Of a DNA stretch of 6,999 bases, positions 1 through 6,989 are shown in pieces. Each line of letters begins with the position of its first letter. Position 1 is the stretch's first letter. The notes under the pieces are model-generated. The model worked only from the letters and a program-made list of their open reading frames with translations. It was not told the DNA's origin and did not search any database. Source of the stretch: Actinomycetota bacterium (GTDB taxonomy: Bacteria; Actinomycetota; Thermoleophilia; Solirubrobacterales; 70-9); assembly GCA_005884305.1 (NCBI GenBank), contig VAYL01000217.1:11197-18195 (forward strand), in the 5' to 3' direction. Both the position numbers and the translations under genes were made by a program.

Positions 1-103
1 CATGGCGCCGGGCATCGGCGAGCCCATGCGCAGTGCGGCCATTACTTTACTGTCTGAAGTAATGGCCGCACTGCGCATGGGCTCGCCGATGCCCGGCGCC
101 ATG
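1..103. repeat. Perfect 47-bp inverted repeat with 9-nt spacer at the window edge
   Basis: Bases 1-47 are the exact reverse complement of 57-103, with spacer TACTGTCTG at 48-56. The right arm is ordinary coding sequence of the minus-strand flippase-like gene. The left arm repeats it backwards and keeps the frame open. The match reaches base 1, so the arm length is a minimum. A perfect palindrome this long inside a coding end and touching the sequence edge is best explained as a fold-back (hairpin chimera or assembly-end) artefact. A real cruciform or an extreme terminator is less likely. Confidence 0.95.
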
Positions 104-1200
104 TGACCCCGTGCCCGCTCCTCCTCCCAGCGCGTGACGGTCCGCCGCAGCTGGAAGAACGCGACCATCCCCGGCGGGATCGGTAGCCAGAATGCCGCCA
201 GCCGGTAGGTAAGCACGGCCGCGAAGACCTCGCCGCTCGGCAGCCCGAACAGCACGAAGGTGCCGATCATGCCCGCGTCCACGGCGCCCACGCCCCCCGG
301 GGCCAGCGGAAACAGGTTGGCGACCATCCCGACGAAGAAGCCCTGCACGACGACGCCGAACGGGACATGGACGCCGTACGCGTGGAACGACGCCCACAGG
401 ATCCCGATGTTGCACGCCCAGAAGCCGATGGCGCCCGCGAGCGCAAGACCACCTCGTGACGGGTTGCGGACGAAGTCGATCGCGGTTCGCGTGCCGCTTG
501 CGAGTGTCGCTGGAGCCGAGGCCAGTCGCCACGCGATCCGGTGGAAGCGGTAGCCCTGCGCGAAGTGCGCCAGGCGACGCTCGATGTCGTCCGGGATCAG
601 GGCGATGAGCAGGAAGACCACGATCATCGCGGCCGCGATCGCCGCCGGCACGATGGTTAGGCCGACCGGGGACTCCCCGCTGAGCACACCGGTCCGCAGC
701 AGAACGCCGAACAGAACGAGGGCAAACATGTACACCGCGTAGAGCAGTACGAGGAACGCGACCATCCTGCACGCGGTCTGCCGCCGCTCCATACCTGCCT
801 TGCGCAGTGCCCAGTAGGTGAGAACGATCCCCCCGGCGCCACCCGCGGAGAACAAACGGGTGGCCGCGAGGCCGGCCATCGTGATCTGGTACGACTCACT
901 CCACTCGAGGTGCAGCAGGTGCTCGCCGACGACGCCGCGGAAGAGCGCGACGTACGAGGCGAACATGAGGACCGTGAACGCCAGGGCGACCACGAGCCAG
1001 GCGGGGCTCGCGTCGCCCAGCTGGCCGATAGCACCCTTGGTGCCGACGATCTTCGGCACCAGGATGTAGATCGCCGCCAAGAGCAGGAGCACCACGACGA
1101 CCGTCTGGATCAGGCGCTTCGGGGAGGCGAAGAACGCAGGCTCGGTCTCCTCACCCTCCTGAGTCAGATCCCGATCGACCACATCCTGGTCGCTCCCCAT
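1..1200 (-). CDS. Lysylphosphatidylglycerol synthase TM-region / YbhN-like 'flippase-like' membrane protein, 3' end missing
   Basis: Integral membrane protein of the LPG_synthase_TM / UPF0104 family. Members are associated with moving or modifying envelope lipids, but the substrate cannot be read from sequence. The ATG at 1200-1198 opens a frame of 400 codons to the window edge with no stop. A charged acidic N-terminus (1-28) precedes a first membrane segment at about 30-49, and further hydrophobic segments lie at about 66-88, 145-170, 180-202, 252-275, 282-300, 308-335 and 336-350. Family signatures are visible: RLFSAGGAGG (115-124) and the Pro/Gly motif NLFPLAPGGVGAVDA (295-309). AGGA lies two bases upstream of the ATG, too close for an ideal ribosome site. 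The gene lies 68 bp downstream of the PAP2 gene on the same strand and may share its transcript. Residues after about 380 run through the hairpin repeat. From about 385 they are a mirror image of upstream sequence, so the true C-terminus is not in the window. Family call is confident; function is not. Confidence 0.88.
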   Translation of the reverse strand, partial: MGSDQDVVDRDLTQEGEETEPAFFASPKRLIQTVVVVLLLLAAIYILVPKIVGTKGAIGQLGDASPAWLVVALAFTVLMFASYVALFRGVVGEHLLHLEWSESYQITMAGLAATRLFSAGGAGGIVLTYWALRKAGMERRQTACRMVAFLVLLYAVYMFALVLFGVLLRTGVLSGESPVGLTIVPAAIAAAMIVVFLLIALIPDDIERRLAHFAQGYRFHRIAWRLASAPATLASGTRTAIDFVRNPSRGGLALAGAIGFWACNIGILWASFHAYGVHVPFGVVVQGFFVGMVANLFPLAPGGVGAVDAGMIGTFVLFGLPSGEVFAAVLTYRLAAFWLPIPPGMVAFFQLRRTVTRWEEERARGHMAPGIGEPMRSAAITSDSKVMAALRMGSPMPGAM

Positions 1201-1268: not shown

Positions 1269-2099
1269 TCAGCCGTTCGCAGCCGCCTCGAGGCGCTGCG
1301 CGAATGCGCTGACGCGGCGCGCCAGCGGGCGGGCGGGCGACTGGCCGTTCCGCACCGCCGCAACTATGCCCGACCCCACCAGCAGGTCGATCACGTAGTG
1401 CTCTCCCAGGTAGACGAGCGCCAGTCCCAGCGTGAGCGCGTAGGACCACCCCGCGATGCCGGGCACCGTGCCCGCCTCCGACAGCAGTATCGCCGCGAGC
1501 AGCGAGGTGGCGAAGTGAAGCGATGGCATCGCCGCCCACGGATTGCCGCCGAGCGAGGAATAGAGGGCAGGCCAGGCTCGGCCCCAGGTCCCCTCCCCCA
1601 CCTCGACCATGACGCGCCTCAGGTGGCGTGGCGCGGCCGCCCCGGCGACGATGTCCTCGCTCAGGGGTCCCTCCTGTTCGGCGATGTAGCCGTTCTCGGC
1701 CGCCCACCACGGCGGCGCGGTGGGGAATGCGTAGTAGATCGCGCAACCGAGGTCGAAGGTCGCCGCCATCTGAAGCGCGGCACCGGGAAACCGGTGCTCG
1801 TCGCGGAGCAGGATCCAGACCAGCGCGGCATACGGCTCGATGAACCAGGCCCAGTGGACGATGGCCAGGACCCGGTCGAGCCGGGTCACCCTTCCCGGCC
1901 GCGACAGCGCGCGCTGCAGGCGCACGTTCGGGAGGTCGCCGGCGCCCAGGAATCTGTCGACCGCGATCGGATACCGAACGCGCAGGCGTTCCCGCAACCG
2001 CTCCGGGTCGTCGTACGGGAGTTCGTGAATCACCGTGAACGCCCACATCTGGGCGACGAAGATCGCCACGTCCCGCGCGCGCGTCCGCGGGAACAGCAC
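1269..2099 (-). CDS. PAP2-superfamily membrane protein (PAP2_3 / inositol phosphorylceramide synthase-like type)
   Basis: Membrane phosphatase or phosphotransferase of the type-2 phosphatidic acid phosphatase superfamily, presumably acting on a lipid phosphate or lipid headgroup in the cytoplasmic membrane. The catalytic motifs are present: FPTAPPW (125-131), MPSLHFATS (191-199) with the active-site region Pro-Ser-x-His, and YLGEHYVID (230-238) with the His234...Asp238 pair expected of motif C3. Hydrophobic segments lie at about 12-25, 77-98, 110-125, 195-207 and 214-250. The GTG at 2099-2097 is the first usual start after the in-frame stop at 2162-2160, and gives 276 aa. It cuts a hydrophobic N-terminus short. 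An adjacent frame from TTG 2238 encodes a basic then hydrophobic stretch that would join this frame after a one-base shift near 2140-2160. The real protein may therefore be about 320 aa, with a frameshift or sequencing error. The substrate is unknown. Confidence 0.85.
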   Translation of the reverse strand: MLFPRTRARDVAIFVAQMWAFTVIHELPYDDPERLRERLRVRYPIAVDRFLGAGDLPNVRLQRALSRPGRVTRLDRVLAIVHWAWFIEPYAALVWILLRDEHRFPGAALQMAATFDLGCAIYYAFPTAPPWWAAENGYIAEQEGPLSEDIVAGAAAPRHLRRVMVEVGEGTWGRAWPALYSSLGGNPWAAMPSLHFATSLLAAILLSEAGTVPGIAGWSYALTLGLALVYLGEHYVIDLLVGSGIVAAVRNGQSPARPLARRVSAFAQRLEAAANG

Positions 2100-2404: not shown

Positions 2405-3277
2405 TTGGCGACCCGGAAGCGACTCCGCCGTCTCGCCCTCTATATCTGCCTCGCGCTGGCCGCGCTGGCGCTGCTTGCCGTGCCTGCCGGGGCATCGGTC
2501 TTCGGGCCGCGCCAAGCGCACTCGCCGAACGCCAGCGACATCAGAACCGCTTACTGGGTGGCGATCATCGTCGGCGCGGTACTGATCATCGCCGTCCACG
2601 CTTTCCTGATCGCGGCCCTGGTCCGGTTCCGGGCGCGGCGGGGCCGCTCGCCGCGGCGGTTCACCGCCGGCCACAGGGCCTTCGCCCGCCCTGCTGTCCC
2701 ACTTGTCGCGATCGCGGTCGGGCTCTTCGTCTTCGCAATCGTGATGACGACCAAGACCCGCGACGTCCAGGCGACCGGCCCGGAGGGCCTTGGCGCGGAC
2801 AGCGATCTCGTCGCCCAGGTCAACGGACTCAGCATCCCCTCGGGCTCCCCCGTGCTGAACATCAACGTCATCGGGCAGCGCTGGCTTTGGCGCTTCGAGT
2901 ATCCGGGCGGCCGCCCCGGTGACCGGGTGTTCTCGTACGGCCAGCTGACAGTGCCGGTCGATACCGCAGTCCTGCTCCACCTGACGTCCACGGACGTCAC
3001 GCACCGCTGGTTCATCCCCACCCTCGGCGGGCAGGTGGACGCGATCCCCGGGCAGGACGTCAGCACCTGGTTCCGGGCCGACCAGACCGGCACGTTCTCC
3101 GGCCAGTCGACCTCGTATTCCGGTAGCGCGTACGCCACGATGCGCGCCTGGGTGCACGTCGTGACGGCGCAGCAGTACCAGAGCTTCATCAGCTCAAAGC
3201 GAAAGCAGCTCGCCCAGGCGCAGGATTACGTGTCGAAGAAGCTCGGCGAGACCACCTCAGGGGTGCCGACGCCATGA
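2405..3277 (+). CDS. ctaC: Cytochrome oxidase subunit II homologue lacking the CuA site
   Basis: In ordinary oxidases this subunit carries the CuA centre that takes electrons from cytochrome c. This 290-aa protein has the normal architecture: a basic N-terminus and signal-like hydrophobic stretch (10-30), two membrane helices (about 49-73 and 96-115), then an extracytoplasmic cupredoxin domain. The domain keeps the aromatic motif RWLWRFEYP (159-167) and the first ligand position His200 in TDVTHRWFIP. The usual G-Q-C-x-E-x-C-G-x-x-H-x-x-M loop reads GQSTSYSGSAYATM (233-246). Both Cys are Ser235 and Ser239, Glu is Ser237 and the second His is Tyr243; only Met246 remains. CuA therefore cannot form by the known chemistry. 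The start is TTG, because a TAG at 2390-2392 closes the frame and no ATG or GTG lies between. The stop overlaps the next start as ATGA. Quinol-oxidase subunit II also lacks CuA, but the partner subunit here argues against that role. The symbol marks homology only. Confidence 0.9.
   Translation: MATRKRLRRLALYICLALAALALLAVPAGASVFGPRQAHSPNASDIRTAYWVAIIVGAVLIIAVHAFLIAALVRFRARRGRSPRRFTAGHRAFARPAVPLVAIAVGLFVFAIVMTTKTRDVQATGPEGLGADSDLVAQVNGLSIPSGSPVLNINVIGQRWLWRFEYPGGRPGDRVFSYGQLTVPVDTAVLLHLTSTDVTHRWFIPTLGGQVDAIPGQDVSTWFRADQTGTFSGQSTSYSGSAYATMRAWVHVVTAQQYQSFISSKRKQLAQAQDYVSKKLGETTSGVPTP
3259..3263 (+). promoter_or_regulatory. Ribosome binding site AGGGG for the subunit I homologue
   Basis: AGGGG lies ten bases before the ATG at 3274, inside the end of the subunit II gene. 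It supports this ATG as the start and translational coupling through the ATGA overlap. Confidence 0.5.
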
Positions 3278-5016
3278 CGCCTCCCACCGCAGCGGGCACG
3301 GCCCGCCCCGAGCTCGTCACCGAGCACGTGCCGCGTCGCCGGCAGGCCTGGATCGAGCGCGCCACGAGCTCCGACCACAAGTCCGTGGGGATGATGTACA
3401 TCGGCGCTGCGCTCACCTTCGGCCTCACCGCGCTCACCGCGCTGGTCGTGATGCGGGTCCAGCTCATCGTCCCCGAGAACACGACGATCGATCCCGAGAT
3501 CTTCAACCGCGTCATGTCGAGCTTCGCCGTGACCGGGGTCGTCTTGTTCGCGATCCCGCTGGCGCTCGGGCTCTTCTCCTATATCGCGCCGCTTCAGGTC
3601 GGAGCGCGCGGGGTGGCGTTTCCGAGGCTGAACCTCATGTCGTTCTGGCTCTACGTTGCCGGCGGCTTCACGATTTACGGCAGCTTCCTGTGGCGGCCCT
3701 CGGAGGCAGGCTTCGCGGCGCTCCCTCCGCTCTCCGAGCCGCTCTACTCCAACACCCACGGCGTCGACGCCTGGATCGTCGGCACCGCCCTGGCCGTGCT
3801 CGGCTTCGTCTGTTTCGCCGTCAACCTCGTGGCGACGCTGCGCACGATGCGGGCGCCGGGGATGGCGTGGCGCCGCGTGCCGCCGTTCACCTGGGCTGCG
3901 AACCTGGGGAGCTACCTGCTCCTGATCTGCGGGCCGGTGATGTTGGCAGCGCTCGTCATGCTGTTCATCGATCGCCACTACGGCGGCGTCTTCTTCGACC
4001 CCGGCTATGGGGGCGCGCCGATCCTCTACGAGCACTTCGCCTCGTTCTTCTTCACCGGCGCCTTCGCGTTCATGGTCATCTTCGCGGCCGGCGTCATCTC
4101 CGACGTGCTGCCGCCGTTCGGGCGAAAGCCGCTCTTCAGCCAGCGCGGCGTGATGAGCTGCATGCTCGCGATCGCGATCGTCGGTCCGCTGGCCTGGATG
4201 CGCAACATGTACTCGGCACCGATCCCGACCGCCTTCCTCGTCTTGGCGATGCTGTTCGCGGTGGCGTTGGTGATCCCCATCGGGCTCCTGATCTACAACT
4301 GGATCGCGACCATCTGGGGCGGCACGCTGCGCACCCGCGCGGCGCCGCTGTACGCGATCGGGGCGATCAGCGCGATGACGATCGGGCTCGCCGGGGACCT
4401 CGCGTGGTCGCTGATCCCCGTGGGCTGGCAGATCCAGAACACCACGGCGTCCCAGGGCGCGACGATCGCGGTGATGGTCGGCGCCGCGGTCCTCGGCGGC
4501 TTCGCCGCGCTTCATTACTGGATGCCCAAGATCACGGGCCGCCTCGTCGGCGACGGGGTCGCGAAGGCCGCGCTGCCGCTGATCCTCGTTGGCCTATACG
4601 CCTTCGCCCTGATGGCCTTCTTCGCCGGCGTCAAGGGCCAGCCGGTCGACATCTACAAGTTCTACGGCGGTGAAGGCCTGGACGGCTACAACCTCGTCGC
4701 CTCGATCGGGGCGTTCGTGATGGCCAGCGGGGTGCTGCTCGAGTTGGGGAACCTCGTCCACGCCTATGGCCGCGGCGTCCTCACCGGCCACGACCCCTGG
4801 GGCGCCGCCACCCTGGAGTGGTACGCCACCTCGCCGCCGCCAGTCCACAACTTCGACGTGGTGCCGGATGTCCGCAGCTCCGAGCCGCTCTACGACATCC
4901 GCCGCGCGATCGCCAACCGGACGTATACCTGGCGGCCCGCCGCGAGGGAGGCGGCGCCGGACCAGCCTGCGCCCGAGGCGGTCGAGACCGGTGGGCCGAC
5001 GACCGGCAGTCGATAG
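3274..5016 (+). CDS. ctaD: Cytochrome oxidase subunit I homologue without heme, CuB or proton-channel residues
   Basis: Full-length (580 aa), about 12-helix A-type heme-copper oxidase subunit I by fold. It keeps family landmarks: SSDHKSVG (32-39), GAR-VAFPRLN (110-120), DRHYGGVFFDPGYGG (233-247), LYEHF (251-255), RKPLF (284-288), YNWIATIWGG (341-350) and YWMPKITGR (415-423). An ungapped reading against the canonical motifs shows the catalytic residues replaced. The low-spin heme His in helix II is Phe84. HPEVY is TGAFA (261-265), losing a CuB His, the Glu and the cross-linked Tyr. The CuB His-His pair is Arg310-Asn311. The heme a3 and heme a histidines are Ala396 and Ile398. The Mg-site His-Asp is Gln388-Asn389, and the propionate Arg-Arg is Val458-Asp459. 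The D-channel Asp is Gly113, and the K-channel Thr and Lys are Ile336 and Leu339. The frame has no stops or shifts, so it does not look like a decaying pseudogene. It cannot be a normal oxidase; its role is unknown. The symbol marks homology only. Confidence 0.92.
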   Translation: MTPPTAAGTARPELVTEHVPRRRQAWIERATSSDHKSVGMMYIGAALTFGLTALTALVVMRVQLIVPENTTIDPEIFNRVMSSFAVTGVVLFAIPLALGLFSYIAPLQVGARGVAFPRLNLMSFWLYVAGGFTIYGSFLWRPSEAGFAALPPLSEPLYSNTHGVDAWIVGTALAVLGFVCFAVNLVATLRTMRAPGMAWRRVPPFTWAANLGSYLLLICGPVMLAALVMLFIDRHYGGVFFDPGYGGAPILYEHFASFFFTGAFAFMVIFAAGVISDVLPPFGRKPLFSQRGVMSCMLAIAIVGPLAWMRNMYSAPIPTAFLVLAMLFAVALVIPIGLLIYNWIATIWGGTLRTRAAPLYAIGAISAMTIGLAGDLAWSLIPVGWQIQNTTASQGATIAVMVGAAVLGGFAALHYWMPKITGRLVGDGVAKAALPLILVGLYAFALMAFFAGVKGQPVDIYKFYGGEGLDGYNLVASIGAFVMASGVLLELGNLVHAYGRGVLTGHDPWGAATLEWYATSPPPVHNFDVVPDVRSSEPLYDIRRAIANRTYTWRPAAREAAPDQPAPEAVETGGPTTGSR

Positions 5017-5027
5017 CCTGATTTCCA

Positions 5028-6065
5028 ATGGCTAGCGCCCCTCGTGGCGATGCGAACGAACTCGCTCGCTTCCGCCGGCTCCTCACTGCCACCATCGTCG
5101 CCACCTTCGCGCTGATCGTCATCGGCGGCGTCGTGCGCGTCAGCGATTCGGGCCTCGGCTGCGGGGCCGCGGGCAGCGGAACCCACGGCTGGCCGCTCTG
5201 CGGTGGGCGGGTGCTTCCGTTCCTCCAAGAGCACCAGATCATCGAGTTCAGTCACCGCGTAGCAGCCACCATCGTGGTGCTCTTGATCATCGCGCTGGCG
5301 ATCGTGGCGTTCCGCCGCCTGCGCGACCGCCGCTGGCTGGTCCGCGGCGTAGTGGCGGCGGCCGTCCTTGTCGTCGCCCAGGCAGCGCTCGGCGGCCTCA
5401 CCGTCGAGCACGGCCTCGAGCCGGCGTTCGTTGCTTCCCACCTCGGCCTCGCGATGCTGTTGATCGGCCTTCTCATCACCCTGCGGCGGATGGCGCAGGA
5501 CGACGAGCGAGCGGCCCCGCTCGACACGTCGCGGGCGCTTCGCTGGACGGCGATAGCGGCCACCGTCCTGGTCTTCTTCACGATCGTCGCCGGCGGCGTG
5601 GTCGCCGGCACCGAGGAGGAGGGCACCACGTCGCAGCCCGTGATCGGCGCCCACCTCGCGTGCGGCACCGAGTTCCCCTCGTGCCTCGGCAAGTTCATGC
5701 CGTTCTCCTACGGCAAGATGGTCGACATCCAGCTGACCCACCGGCTGCTGATGTACCTGACCACGATCGCGATCGTGGCGCTGACCGCCGTGGCCATCCG
5801 CCGGCGGGTCGTCTTGCCGCCCGGCGGCAACCGAGCCTTCCTCCTGATCCCGCTCCTGCTCGTGTGTCAGATCCTGCTGGGCGCGATCAACGTGTGGGAG
5901 GGCAAGCATCCCGGGCTGATCGTCGGCCACCTGACGCTCGCCACGATCCTGTGGGGGACGGTCGTGTACGCAGCGGCCACGCTGATGCCGGTCCCCGAGG
6001 CCGCGCGGGCGAAGCAGGCCGAGGAGGCCGGCGGGGCGGCTGAGACACAGGCGGTAACGGTCTGA
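5028..6065 (+). CDS. ctaA: Heme A synthase (COX15/CtaA type)
   Basis: Membrane enzyme that oxidises the C8 methyl of heme O to a formyl group, making heme A for aa3-type oxidases. The 345-aa protein shows the expected duplicated four-helix layout with all four conserved heme-binding histidines: His76 in IEFSHR, His138 in ASHLGLA, His238 in LTHRLL and His301 in GHLTLA. The conserved loop glutamate is Glu73. Both extracytoplasmic cysteine pairs are present (Cys45/Cys58 ending in WPLC, and Cys212/Cys219), as in the Bacillus-type enzyme. The C-terminus (about 322-345) is a short Ala/Glu-rich tail. The ATG lies 11 bases after the subunit I stop, without a Shine-Dalgarno sequence. A weak TAGCCT box (5014-5019) overlaps that stop, so reinitiation or a leaderless internal transcript are both possible. 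The intact catalytic set contrasts with the gutted oxidase subunits upstream. Confidence 0.95.
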   Translation: MASAPRGDANELARFRRLLTATIVATFALIVIGGVVRVSDSGLGCGAAGSGTHGWPLCGGRVLPFLQEHQIIEFSHRVAATIVVLLIIALAIVAFRRLRDRRWLVRGVVAAAVLVVAQAALGGLTVEHGLEPAFVASHLGLAMLLIGLLITLRRMAQDDERAAPLDTSRALRWTAIAATVLVFFTIVAGGVVAGTEEEGTTSQPVIGAHLACGTEFPSCLGKFMPFSYGKMVDIQLTHRLLMYLTTIAIVALTAVAIRRRVVLPPGGNRAFLLIPLLLVCQILLGAINVWEGKHPGLIVGHLTLATILWGTVVYAAATLMPVPEAARAKQAEEAGGAAETQAVTV

Positions 6066-6122: not shown

Positions 6123-6989
6123 TTGCTGGACATCCTGCGCGACTACCTCGCGCTGACCAAGCCCAGGATCATCGTCCTGCTGCTGATCACGACGGTGACG
6201 ACGATGTTCGTCGCCGACCCGTCCGGGCCGAGCCTCGCCACCATCCTCTGGACCATGCTGGGCGGCTACCTCGCGGCGGGCGGCGCCGGGGCGATCAACC
6301 ACTTCGTCGACCGCGACCGCGACGCGCGCATGGCGCGGACCTGCGACCGGCCCCTGGTCACCGGCCGGATCGAGCCGAGCCGCGGGCTCGCGTTCGGGAT
6401 CGCGCTCGCGGTGGGCTCGATCGCCCTGCTCGCAGCGACCGTGAACCTCGTGGCCGCGGCGCTCGCGCTGAGCGGGCTGCTTGGCTACGTCTTCGTTTAC
6501 ACGCTGTGGCTGAAGCCGCTGACGCCGCAGAACATCGTCATCGGTGGAGTTGCCGGCGCGGTTCCACCGCTCGTCGGCTGGGCGGCGGCCACCGGTGGCC
6601 TCACCTGGGACGCGCTCTACCCGTTCGCGATCGTCTTCCTCTGGACGCCCCCCCACTTCTGGGCGCTCGCGCTGCTCGTCAAGGACGACTACGAGCGCAC
6701 CGGGGTGCCGATGATGCCGGTCGCGCGCGGCGACGCCACAACGCGTCGCCAAATTCTCGTCTACAGCATCGTCCTGGTCGCGTTCACCGTGCTGCCGTAC
6801 GTCACCGGCCTCTTCGGATGGCTCTATCTCGCGAGCGCGCTCGCCTTCGGCGCCGGCTTCGTCGGCCTCGCCGCCGATCTGGCGCGCCACCCCTCACGCC
6901 CGGCCGCGGTTCGCCTTCATCTGGTCTCGCTGGCCTACCTCGCGCTGCTCTTCGCCGCGATGGCGGCGGATCGCATCCTCCTCAGCTAG
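6123..6989 (+). CDS. ctaB: Protoheme IX farnesyltransferase (heme O synthase)
   Basis: UbiA-superfamily membrane prenyltransferase that adds a farnesyl group to heme B to form heme O, the substrate of CtaA. The 288-aa frame shows LTKPR (11-15), the first aspartate-rich motif NHFVDRDRDARMART (59-73) followed by DRPL, LKPLTPQNIVIGG (130-142), TPPHFWALAL (175-184) and the second motif KDDYERTGVPMMPV (187-200). About eight to nine hydrophobic helices follow the family pattern, ending just before the TAG at 6987-6989. All expected catalytic residues are present. TTG 6123 is the first usual start in this frame after an in-frame TGA at 6063-6065. An ATG at 6065, one base out of frame, may be the true start if the G run at 6118-6122 is miscounted. 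It is very likely co-transcribed with ctaA. Confidence 0.95.
   Translation: MLDILRDYLALTKPRIIVLLLITTVTTMFVADPSGPSLATILWTMLGGYLAAGGAGAINHFVDRDRDARMARTCDRPLVTGRIEPSRGLAFGIALAVGSIALLAATVNLVAAALALSGLLGYVFVYTLWLKPLTPQNIVIGGVAGAVPPLVGWAAATGGLTWDALYPFAIVFLWTPPHFWALALLVKDDYERTGVPMMPVARGDATTRRQILVYSIVLVAFTVLPYVTGLFGWLYLASALAFGAGFVGLAADLARHPSRPAAVRLHLVSLAYLALLFAAMAADRILLS

Follow-up and report, generated by a model that had tools for sequence, protein, structure and literature searches.

We have studied a pair of genes coding for homologues of cytochrome c oxidase subunits II and I in a 6,999-nucleotide stretch of DNA (hereafter the window) from an Actinomycetota bacterium (GenBank assembly GCA_005884305.1, contig VAYL01000217.1). 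Both core subunits have lost their cofactor sites together, subunit II in step with subunit I. Across relatives of the window the pair is under purifying selection, and its ancestor at this locus was a ligand-bearing oxidase. Our preferred explanation, to which we give a probability of a little over 0.4, is that this conserved pair, having lost its heme, CuB and CuA-cysteine ligands, may act as a non-redox 'pseudo-oxidase' that binds and stabilises the ligand-bearing A-type oxidase of the cell. We call a ligand-poor I/II pair a dead copy; f1 is the family of the host, and f2, f3 and f4 are related families. The elements of the pair in the window are as follows.

2405..3277, + strand: coxB-like subunit II, 290 amino acids, TTG start, no CuA cysteines (PF00116, 54 bits, over the cut-off)
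3002..3004, + strand: His200 of subunit II, a retained CuA ligand position
3107..3142, + strand: residues 235-246, the former CuA loop, with Ser for both Cys, Tyr for His and the Met retained
3274..3277, + strand: ATGA overlap of the subunit II stop and subunit I start (4 bp)
3274..5016, + strand: coxA-like subunit I, 580 amino acids, no heme or CuB ligands
3523..3525, + strand: F84, replacing the helix II heme a His
4054..4068, + strand: TGAFA (261-265), replacing HPEVY
4201..4206, + strand: R310-N311, replacing the CuB His-His
4459..4467, + strand: A396-T-I398, replacing the helix X His-x-His
4648..4650, + strand: D459, replacing a heme-propionate Arg
4774..4908, + strand: C-terminal tail, residues 501-545, the best retained long segment (retention 0.84 and 0.82 in two dead clades, 0.59 in the active paralogue)

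Direct reading of the window subunit I finds none of the six histidines that bind the low-spin heme, the high-spin heme and CuB. F84, TGAFA, R310-N311 and A396-T-I398 stand in their places, in agreement with the original prediction that every heme and CuB ligand position is substituted. It had also been claimed that the structural motifs flanking the lost ligands align without gaps, and an alignment made with phmmer against an actinobacterial COX I (9wcx_I, residues 29-543, 278 bits) is indeed gap-free at every ligand site. The protein has nine histidines in total, at positions 18, 35, 162, 235, 254, 414, 496, 506 and 525. Because only these nine exist, no shifted alignment can restore the ligands of helices II, VII or X; this inventory and the ungapped sites rule out an alignment that hides them. 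H254, upstream of the former HPEVY site, is invariant in active orthologues too. The D-channel Asp, the K-channel Lys, both heme-propionate Arg and the residues of the Mg site are also substituted, the channel residues by Gly and Leu, respectively; the loss of the Mg and propionate sites had been predicted. The 12-helix COX1 fold is intact in the predicted structure. In a Pfam scan COX1 is the only profile to match, and does so significantly, and the score against NCBIfam TIGR02891 (378 bits) is below the cut-off of 671. The number of histidines in transmembrane (TM) segments falls from 12.1 per protein in active copies to 4.9 in dead f1 copies.

The CuA positions of the window subunit II read H-S-S-S-Y-M instead of H-C-E-C-H-M. 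Both cysteines, the Glu and the second His are gone, leaving one His and the Met, and the sole Cys of the protein is residue 15. The score against NCBIfam TIGR02866 is 123 bits, below the cut-off of 148. Every one of the 120 homologues listed, out of 343 significant and with the window's own included, lacks both cysteines and keeps the first His and the Met. Two f4 copies of subunit II have decayed further than that of the window, reading A-G-V-N-Y-Q (L122, 9166-10164) and A-G-V-N-Y-M (L123, 9353-10417).

The subunit I homologues listed (120 of 3026 significant, again including the window's own) are likewise ligand-less without exception, which rules out sequencing error as the cause of the losses. 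Some of the near ones bear the name Solirubrobacterales. The host bin is 2.35 Mb in size and 73% complete. Among 50 genomes of its family the dead subunit I was found in 47, and in 25 of the 26 of high quality; there was no match in G004 (97% complete), G016 (54%) or G111 (78%). Identity to the window subunit I within the family ranges from 39 to 69%. None of the 47 family rows has a histidine at any of the four CuB and a3 positions, and none of the 44 readable at helix II has one there, the other three being gapped (two fragments and G002). No close homologue that retains the ligands was therefore seen among those listed. The low-spin His of helix X is retained in 29 of the 47 rows and missing in 18, the window included. 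The original prediction of a subunit I homologue without any ligand thus applies to the window and to no more than 17 other family rows, whereas for the relatives it has to be softened to the loss, nearly always, of five or six ligands.

The ratio of nonsynonymous to synonymous substitution rates (dN/dS) was calculated by the Nei-Gojobori method with our own script. For the 14 closest dead pairs (13 from f1 and one from f4) it lies between 0.04 and 0.24, compared with 0.07-0.13 in eight pairs of active orthologues and 0.04-0.23 in eight pairs of the second active kind; values near 1 were not seen. These pairs are relatives of the window, whose own nearest genomes, at 68% identity at best, are too diverged to be among them. 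The frame of the window subunit I is fully open. Of 44 long family rows, all have N311 and 43 have Gln at position 310, the window being the exception with Arg. D459 occupies the propionate Arg site in 43 of these rows, and Glu is found there in 5/5 of f4; such a reversal of charge would argue against a bound heme. Low dN/dS, shared losses and one well supported clade (see below) uphold the earlier view of a stable, repurposed family rather than an error or recent decay.

There are 223 columns that are invariant in 29 active orthologues. The dead f1 copies keep 76 of them at ≥90% and lose 60 at ≤15%. Over all columns retention is 0.56 in f1 and 0.48 in f4, compared with 0.71 in the active paralogue and 0.68 in other active oxidases, and in TM9 it falls to 0.23 and 0.20 in the dead clades against 0.89 in the paralogue. 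For the 26 invariant residues of the C-terminal tail, the values tabulated above (0.84 in f1, 0.82 in f4) exceed the 0.59 of the active paralogue (20 copies) and the 0.57 of other active oxidases (five). By the known topology of subunit I the tail is cytosolic.

The locus has a recognizable history. Upstream of the dead pair are genes for a pyridine-nucleotide-disulfide oxidoreductase (thioredoxin-reductase-like), an LPG_synthase_TM protein and a PAP2 protein, and downstream is ctaB. The neighbours within the window are:

1..1200, extending beyond the window, - strand: LPG_synthase_TM gene (PF03706, 88 bits), a syntenic marker
1269..2099, - strand: PAP2-family gene (PF14378, 80 bits), a syntenic marker that is a neighbour in other families too
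5028..6065, + strand: ctaA, heme A synthase-like (PF02628, 143 bits)
6123..6989, + strand: ctaB, heme O synthase, start uncertain (TIGR01473, 327 bits, over the cut-off)

Two or three of the upstream genes also adjoin ligand-bearing f2 and f3 orthologues (L057, L058, L063, L127, L130). In these two families 29 of 30 orthologues keep all six His, the exception being G056, and subunit I from two further families of the class has six His in 18/18 copies read. A tree of 57 rows was calculated with the ligand columns removed, using 18 of the 47 f1 rows and 18 of the 29 active orthologues. Dead f1 forms one clade with support 100/99, and the losses are thus shared. It groups with dead f4, again at 100/99, adjoining the active orthologues. 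In f4, which is one genus, subunit I is ligand-poor and subunit II lacks both cysteines in 5/5 genomes. Trees that separate the f1 and f4 losses were rejected (p-AU 0.0007 and 0.0005) in approximately unbiased (AU) tests that were framed after the first tree had been seen, and with long branches in play. One loss in a common f1/f4 ancestor is the simplest reading, though four of the five f4 copies still have the first CuB His.

There has been at least one further independent loss. In G056 (f2), subunit I reads H-Q-Q-Y-S-R-Q-H and subunit II H-S-Q-G-F-M, and the second oxidase of this genome is intact; no ligand is missing from either alpha subunit of its congener G065. G056 pairs with a ligand-bearing sister at 100/100. 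Given this placement a single origin of all the losses is rejected, one clade of all ligand-poor rows having p-AU 0.027. Among the 120 G056 homologues listed (of 7570 significant) nine show a similar loss, all of them keeping both low-spin heme a His. These are metagenomic proteins (P0241, P0245-P0247, P0253 and P0255-P0258), with recurring Q, S and Q at the former CuB/a3 positions. P0253 groups with a ligand-bearing sister (support 100/100), and a topology that unites all ten rows in one clade is rejected (p-AU 0.005); recombination could also produce the pattern of G056 and P0253.

A second oxidase is present in all 17 family genomes of at least 90% completeness, 16 of which also carry the dead copy. 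It was read in 12 family genomes, and the six His and CuA are intact in all of them. In the genome that carries the window the second copy is fragmented over the ends of contigs C104 and C120 and can be read only in part, with CuA intact. Both copies are found on one contig in 11 family genomes, convergent and about 15 kb apart or less, and the genes between them include cytochrome c, a CBS-domain protein and coxC.

Some further features of the active oxidases may be recorded. The second, active subunit I is extended at its N terminus by some 75-100 residues, which resemble additional transmembrane segments (L049 15615-17579, L126 4554-6479). Another intact oxidase of A1 type is present in the host bin, and its subunit II ends with a cytochrome c motif (L006, G000:C240, 354-3298, - strand). 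It scores up to 596 bits against alpha copies of other families, 451 against a second-kind copy of the family and 289 against the host's dead copy, and may reflect a transfer or a contig of foreign origin.

What might the dead pair do? A structural partner of the active oxidase is the most economical reading, because losses have occurred repeatedly, selection acts on the sequence and its tail, the decay involves both subunits at once and every near-complete genome has a second oxidase. Dead subunit I would pair with dead subunit II, as their overlapping genes and joint decay suggest. The pair would bind no heme, and would dock on the active oxidase or on its subunits III/IV, with the C-terminal tail probably forming part of the contact. 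Cytochrome bd, with its pairing of heme-free CydB and heme-bearing CydA, would serve as the model.

A number of observations weigh against such a partnership. Co-occurrence and clustering are what has been seen so far, and contact between live and dead cores is putative. The gene cluster was already shared while both oxidases were active, and proximity is no proof of contact. G004 has intact active subunits I and II and no dead pair. It also has no match to ctaB (E 1e-20) or coxC (L062, G004:C2:66000-85000), so that this is a block loss that cannot decide the partnership; co-loss of coxC is weak evidence for a complex, ctaB being gone too. Moreover, coxC has no match in three genomes that carry the dead copy (G008, 83% complete; G017, 87%; G130, 90%). 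The tail is the sole region whose retention speaks for the partnership; the cytosolic face as a whole is not specially conserved, which slightly reduces our confidence. For the loop 192-203 retention is 0.88 in f1 and equally 0.88 in the active paralogue. The N-terminal segment 20-34 and the loop 284-289 stand at 0.30 and 0.43 in f1 compared with 1.00 and 0.99 in the paralogue, and all cytosolic segments taken together at 0.73/0.68 compared with 0.75. The dead copies are more closely related than the paralogue to the active alpha copies, and this alone favours a shared tail. The predicted tail has a predicted local distance difference test score (pLDDT) of <50 at 517-522 and 531-546, and the predicted structure of subunit II is only moderate, with a predicted template modelling score (pTM) of 0.56. 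Lastly, two family copies look damaged: G002 lacks residues ~67-90, with no N in the contig, and the N-terminal part of G014 is in a different frame. Both are metagenome-type assemblies with many contigs, where error is possible.

A bolder extension of the structural partner is one that we regard as doubtful. Thermoleophilia-like actinobacteria would repeatedly have converted a functional heme-copper oxidase into a membrane complex without cofactors (on two occasions at least, and on three according to the trees), via a surviving heme-a-only stage (H-Q-Q-Y-S-x-Q-H) in which both low-spin ligands are kept and the binuclear centre is gone, and a live core and a dead one would together make up the active oxidase as a hetero-oligomer. 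If true, this would be the first pseudo-oxidase of the superfamily, and the oxidase scaffold would have a job independent of electrons. A ligand-free version that is selected and family-wide, whose locus holds ligand-bearing orthologues in other families and whose partly decayed intermediates are extant, makes a non-catalytic scaffold role directly testable. Several of the listed homologues are labelled 'cytochrome c oxidase subunit I', and such labels overcount the oxidases in these genomes.

The dead pair belongs to the heme-copper oxidase superfamily by descent, not as an enzyme. With A1-type (HPEVY) cytochrome c oxidase it has in common the fold, length and order of the pair, and ligand-bearing orthologues occupy the same locus in sister families; it differs in lacking the heme a, a3 and CuB ligands, the CuA cysteines and the D- and K-channel residues. 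The CyoA subunit of quinol oxidases (CyoAB, QoxAB) lacks CuA, like the dead subunit II, but quinol oxidases keep the ligands of subunit I, and the CyoB and QoxB NCBIfam scores of the window subunit I are far below their cut-offs. The NorB nitric oxide reductases, of the same superfamily, keep their His ligands, whereas none of the six is left in the window. To our knowledge, histidine ligands are the defining feature of all heme-copper oxidases described to date. We found no report of a ligand-less subunit I in the literature searched, most subscription papers being outside its reach. In the archaeal bd-type oxidase CydAA', CydA is paired with a paralogue. The closest parallel in cytochrome bd is CydB, which shares the fold of CydA and carries no metal cofactor, its heme space being filled by quinone in E. 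coli and by aromatic residues in mycobacteria (PMC8951039). It is thus a cofactor-free relative of a heme-bearing subunit in a terminal oxidase, but of another protein family, and a proven subunit of its enzyme where the dead pair is a putative one.

Alternatively, the dead pair might hold heme or copper chaperones, or immature subunits, during biogenesis of the active oxidase, while remaining outside the mature enzyme. The order of ctaA and then ctaB downstream of the pair in the window is consistent with such an assembly platform. Of the 47 family genomes carrying a dead copy, 43 have a ctaB no more than a few kb away on its contig, which is consistent with it too. However, ctaB also adjoins the ligand-bearing orthologue in sister families, so this neighbourhood is older than the loss. 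The window copy has no ligand left with which to carry heme, and at a propionate site the charge is reversed, from Arg to Asp. On balance we consider this unlikely.

We judge it less probable again that the pair is a repurposed membrane conduit or receptor, in which the vacated heme cavities bind another hydrophobic ligand, such as quinone or lipid, or make an ion path. The mean residue volume over 357 TM columns fell from 141.0 cubic angstrom per residue in active copies to 136.6 in dead ones (a figure that counts the family row L022 twice). Refilling of the cavities by bulkier side chains is thus not supported, which speaks for such a role. New charges are conserved in the long family rows (R79 in 43/44, E375 in 41/44, D392 in 32/44), and in E. 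coli CydB a quinone takes the place of the hemes of CydA (PMC8951039). Yet the D- and K-channel residues are gone, f4 lacks the new charges, and positions 375 and 392 of the window subunit I are Asp and Ala.

A sensor or regulator that signals via the conserved C-terminal tail would account for the retention of that segment, and a CBS-domain gene is nearby in many loci (cluster 5, 15/26 loci). This seems to us improbable: COX1 is the only domain that Pfam finds in the protein, and the CBS gene adjoins ligand-bearing copies too (L054, L055, L130). Slow pseudogene decay of a redundant oxidase, which long branches, low identity and two damaged copies among 47 might suggest, is very improbable indeed and largely refuted by the low dN/dS of the relatives, the newly fixed N311 and D459, the presence of subunit I in 47 of 50 family genomes and a subunit II kept in step.

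Two minor features of the clusters remain. Close to coxA and coxC of the active operon are proteins (L049 10318-11112 and 14689-15702) that resemble universal-stress domains; a Pfam scan of the protein at L049 14692-15618 gave nothing above the cut-off. An extra CtaA-like gene (COX15-CtaA) is found in the cluster of genera g9, g11 and g12, at four loci (L060 8698-9753, L051, L053 and L064).
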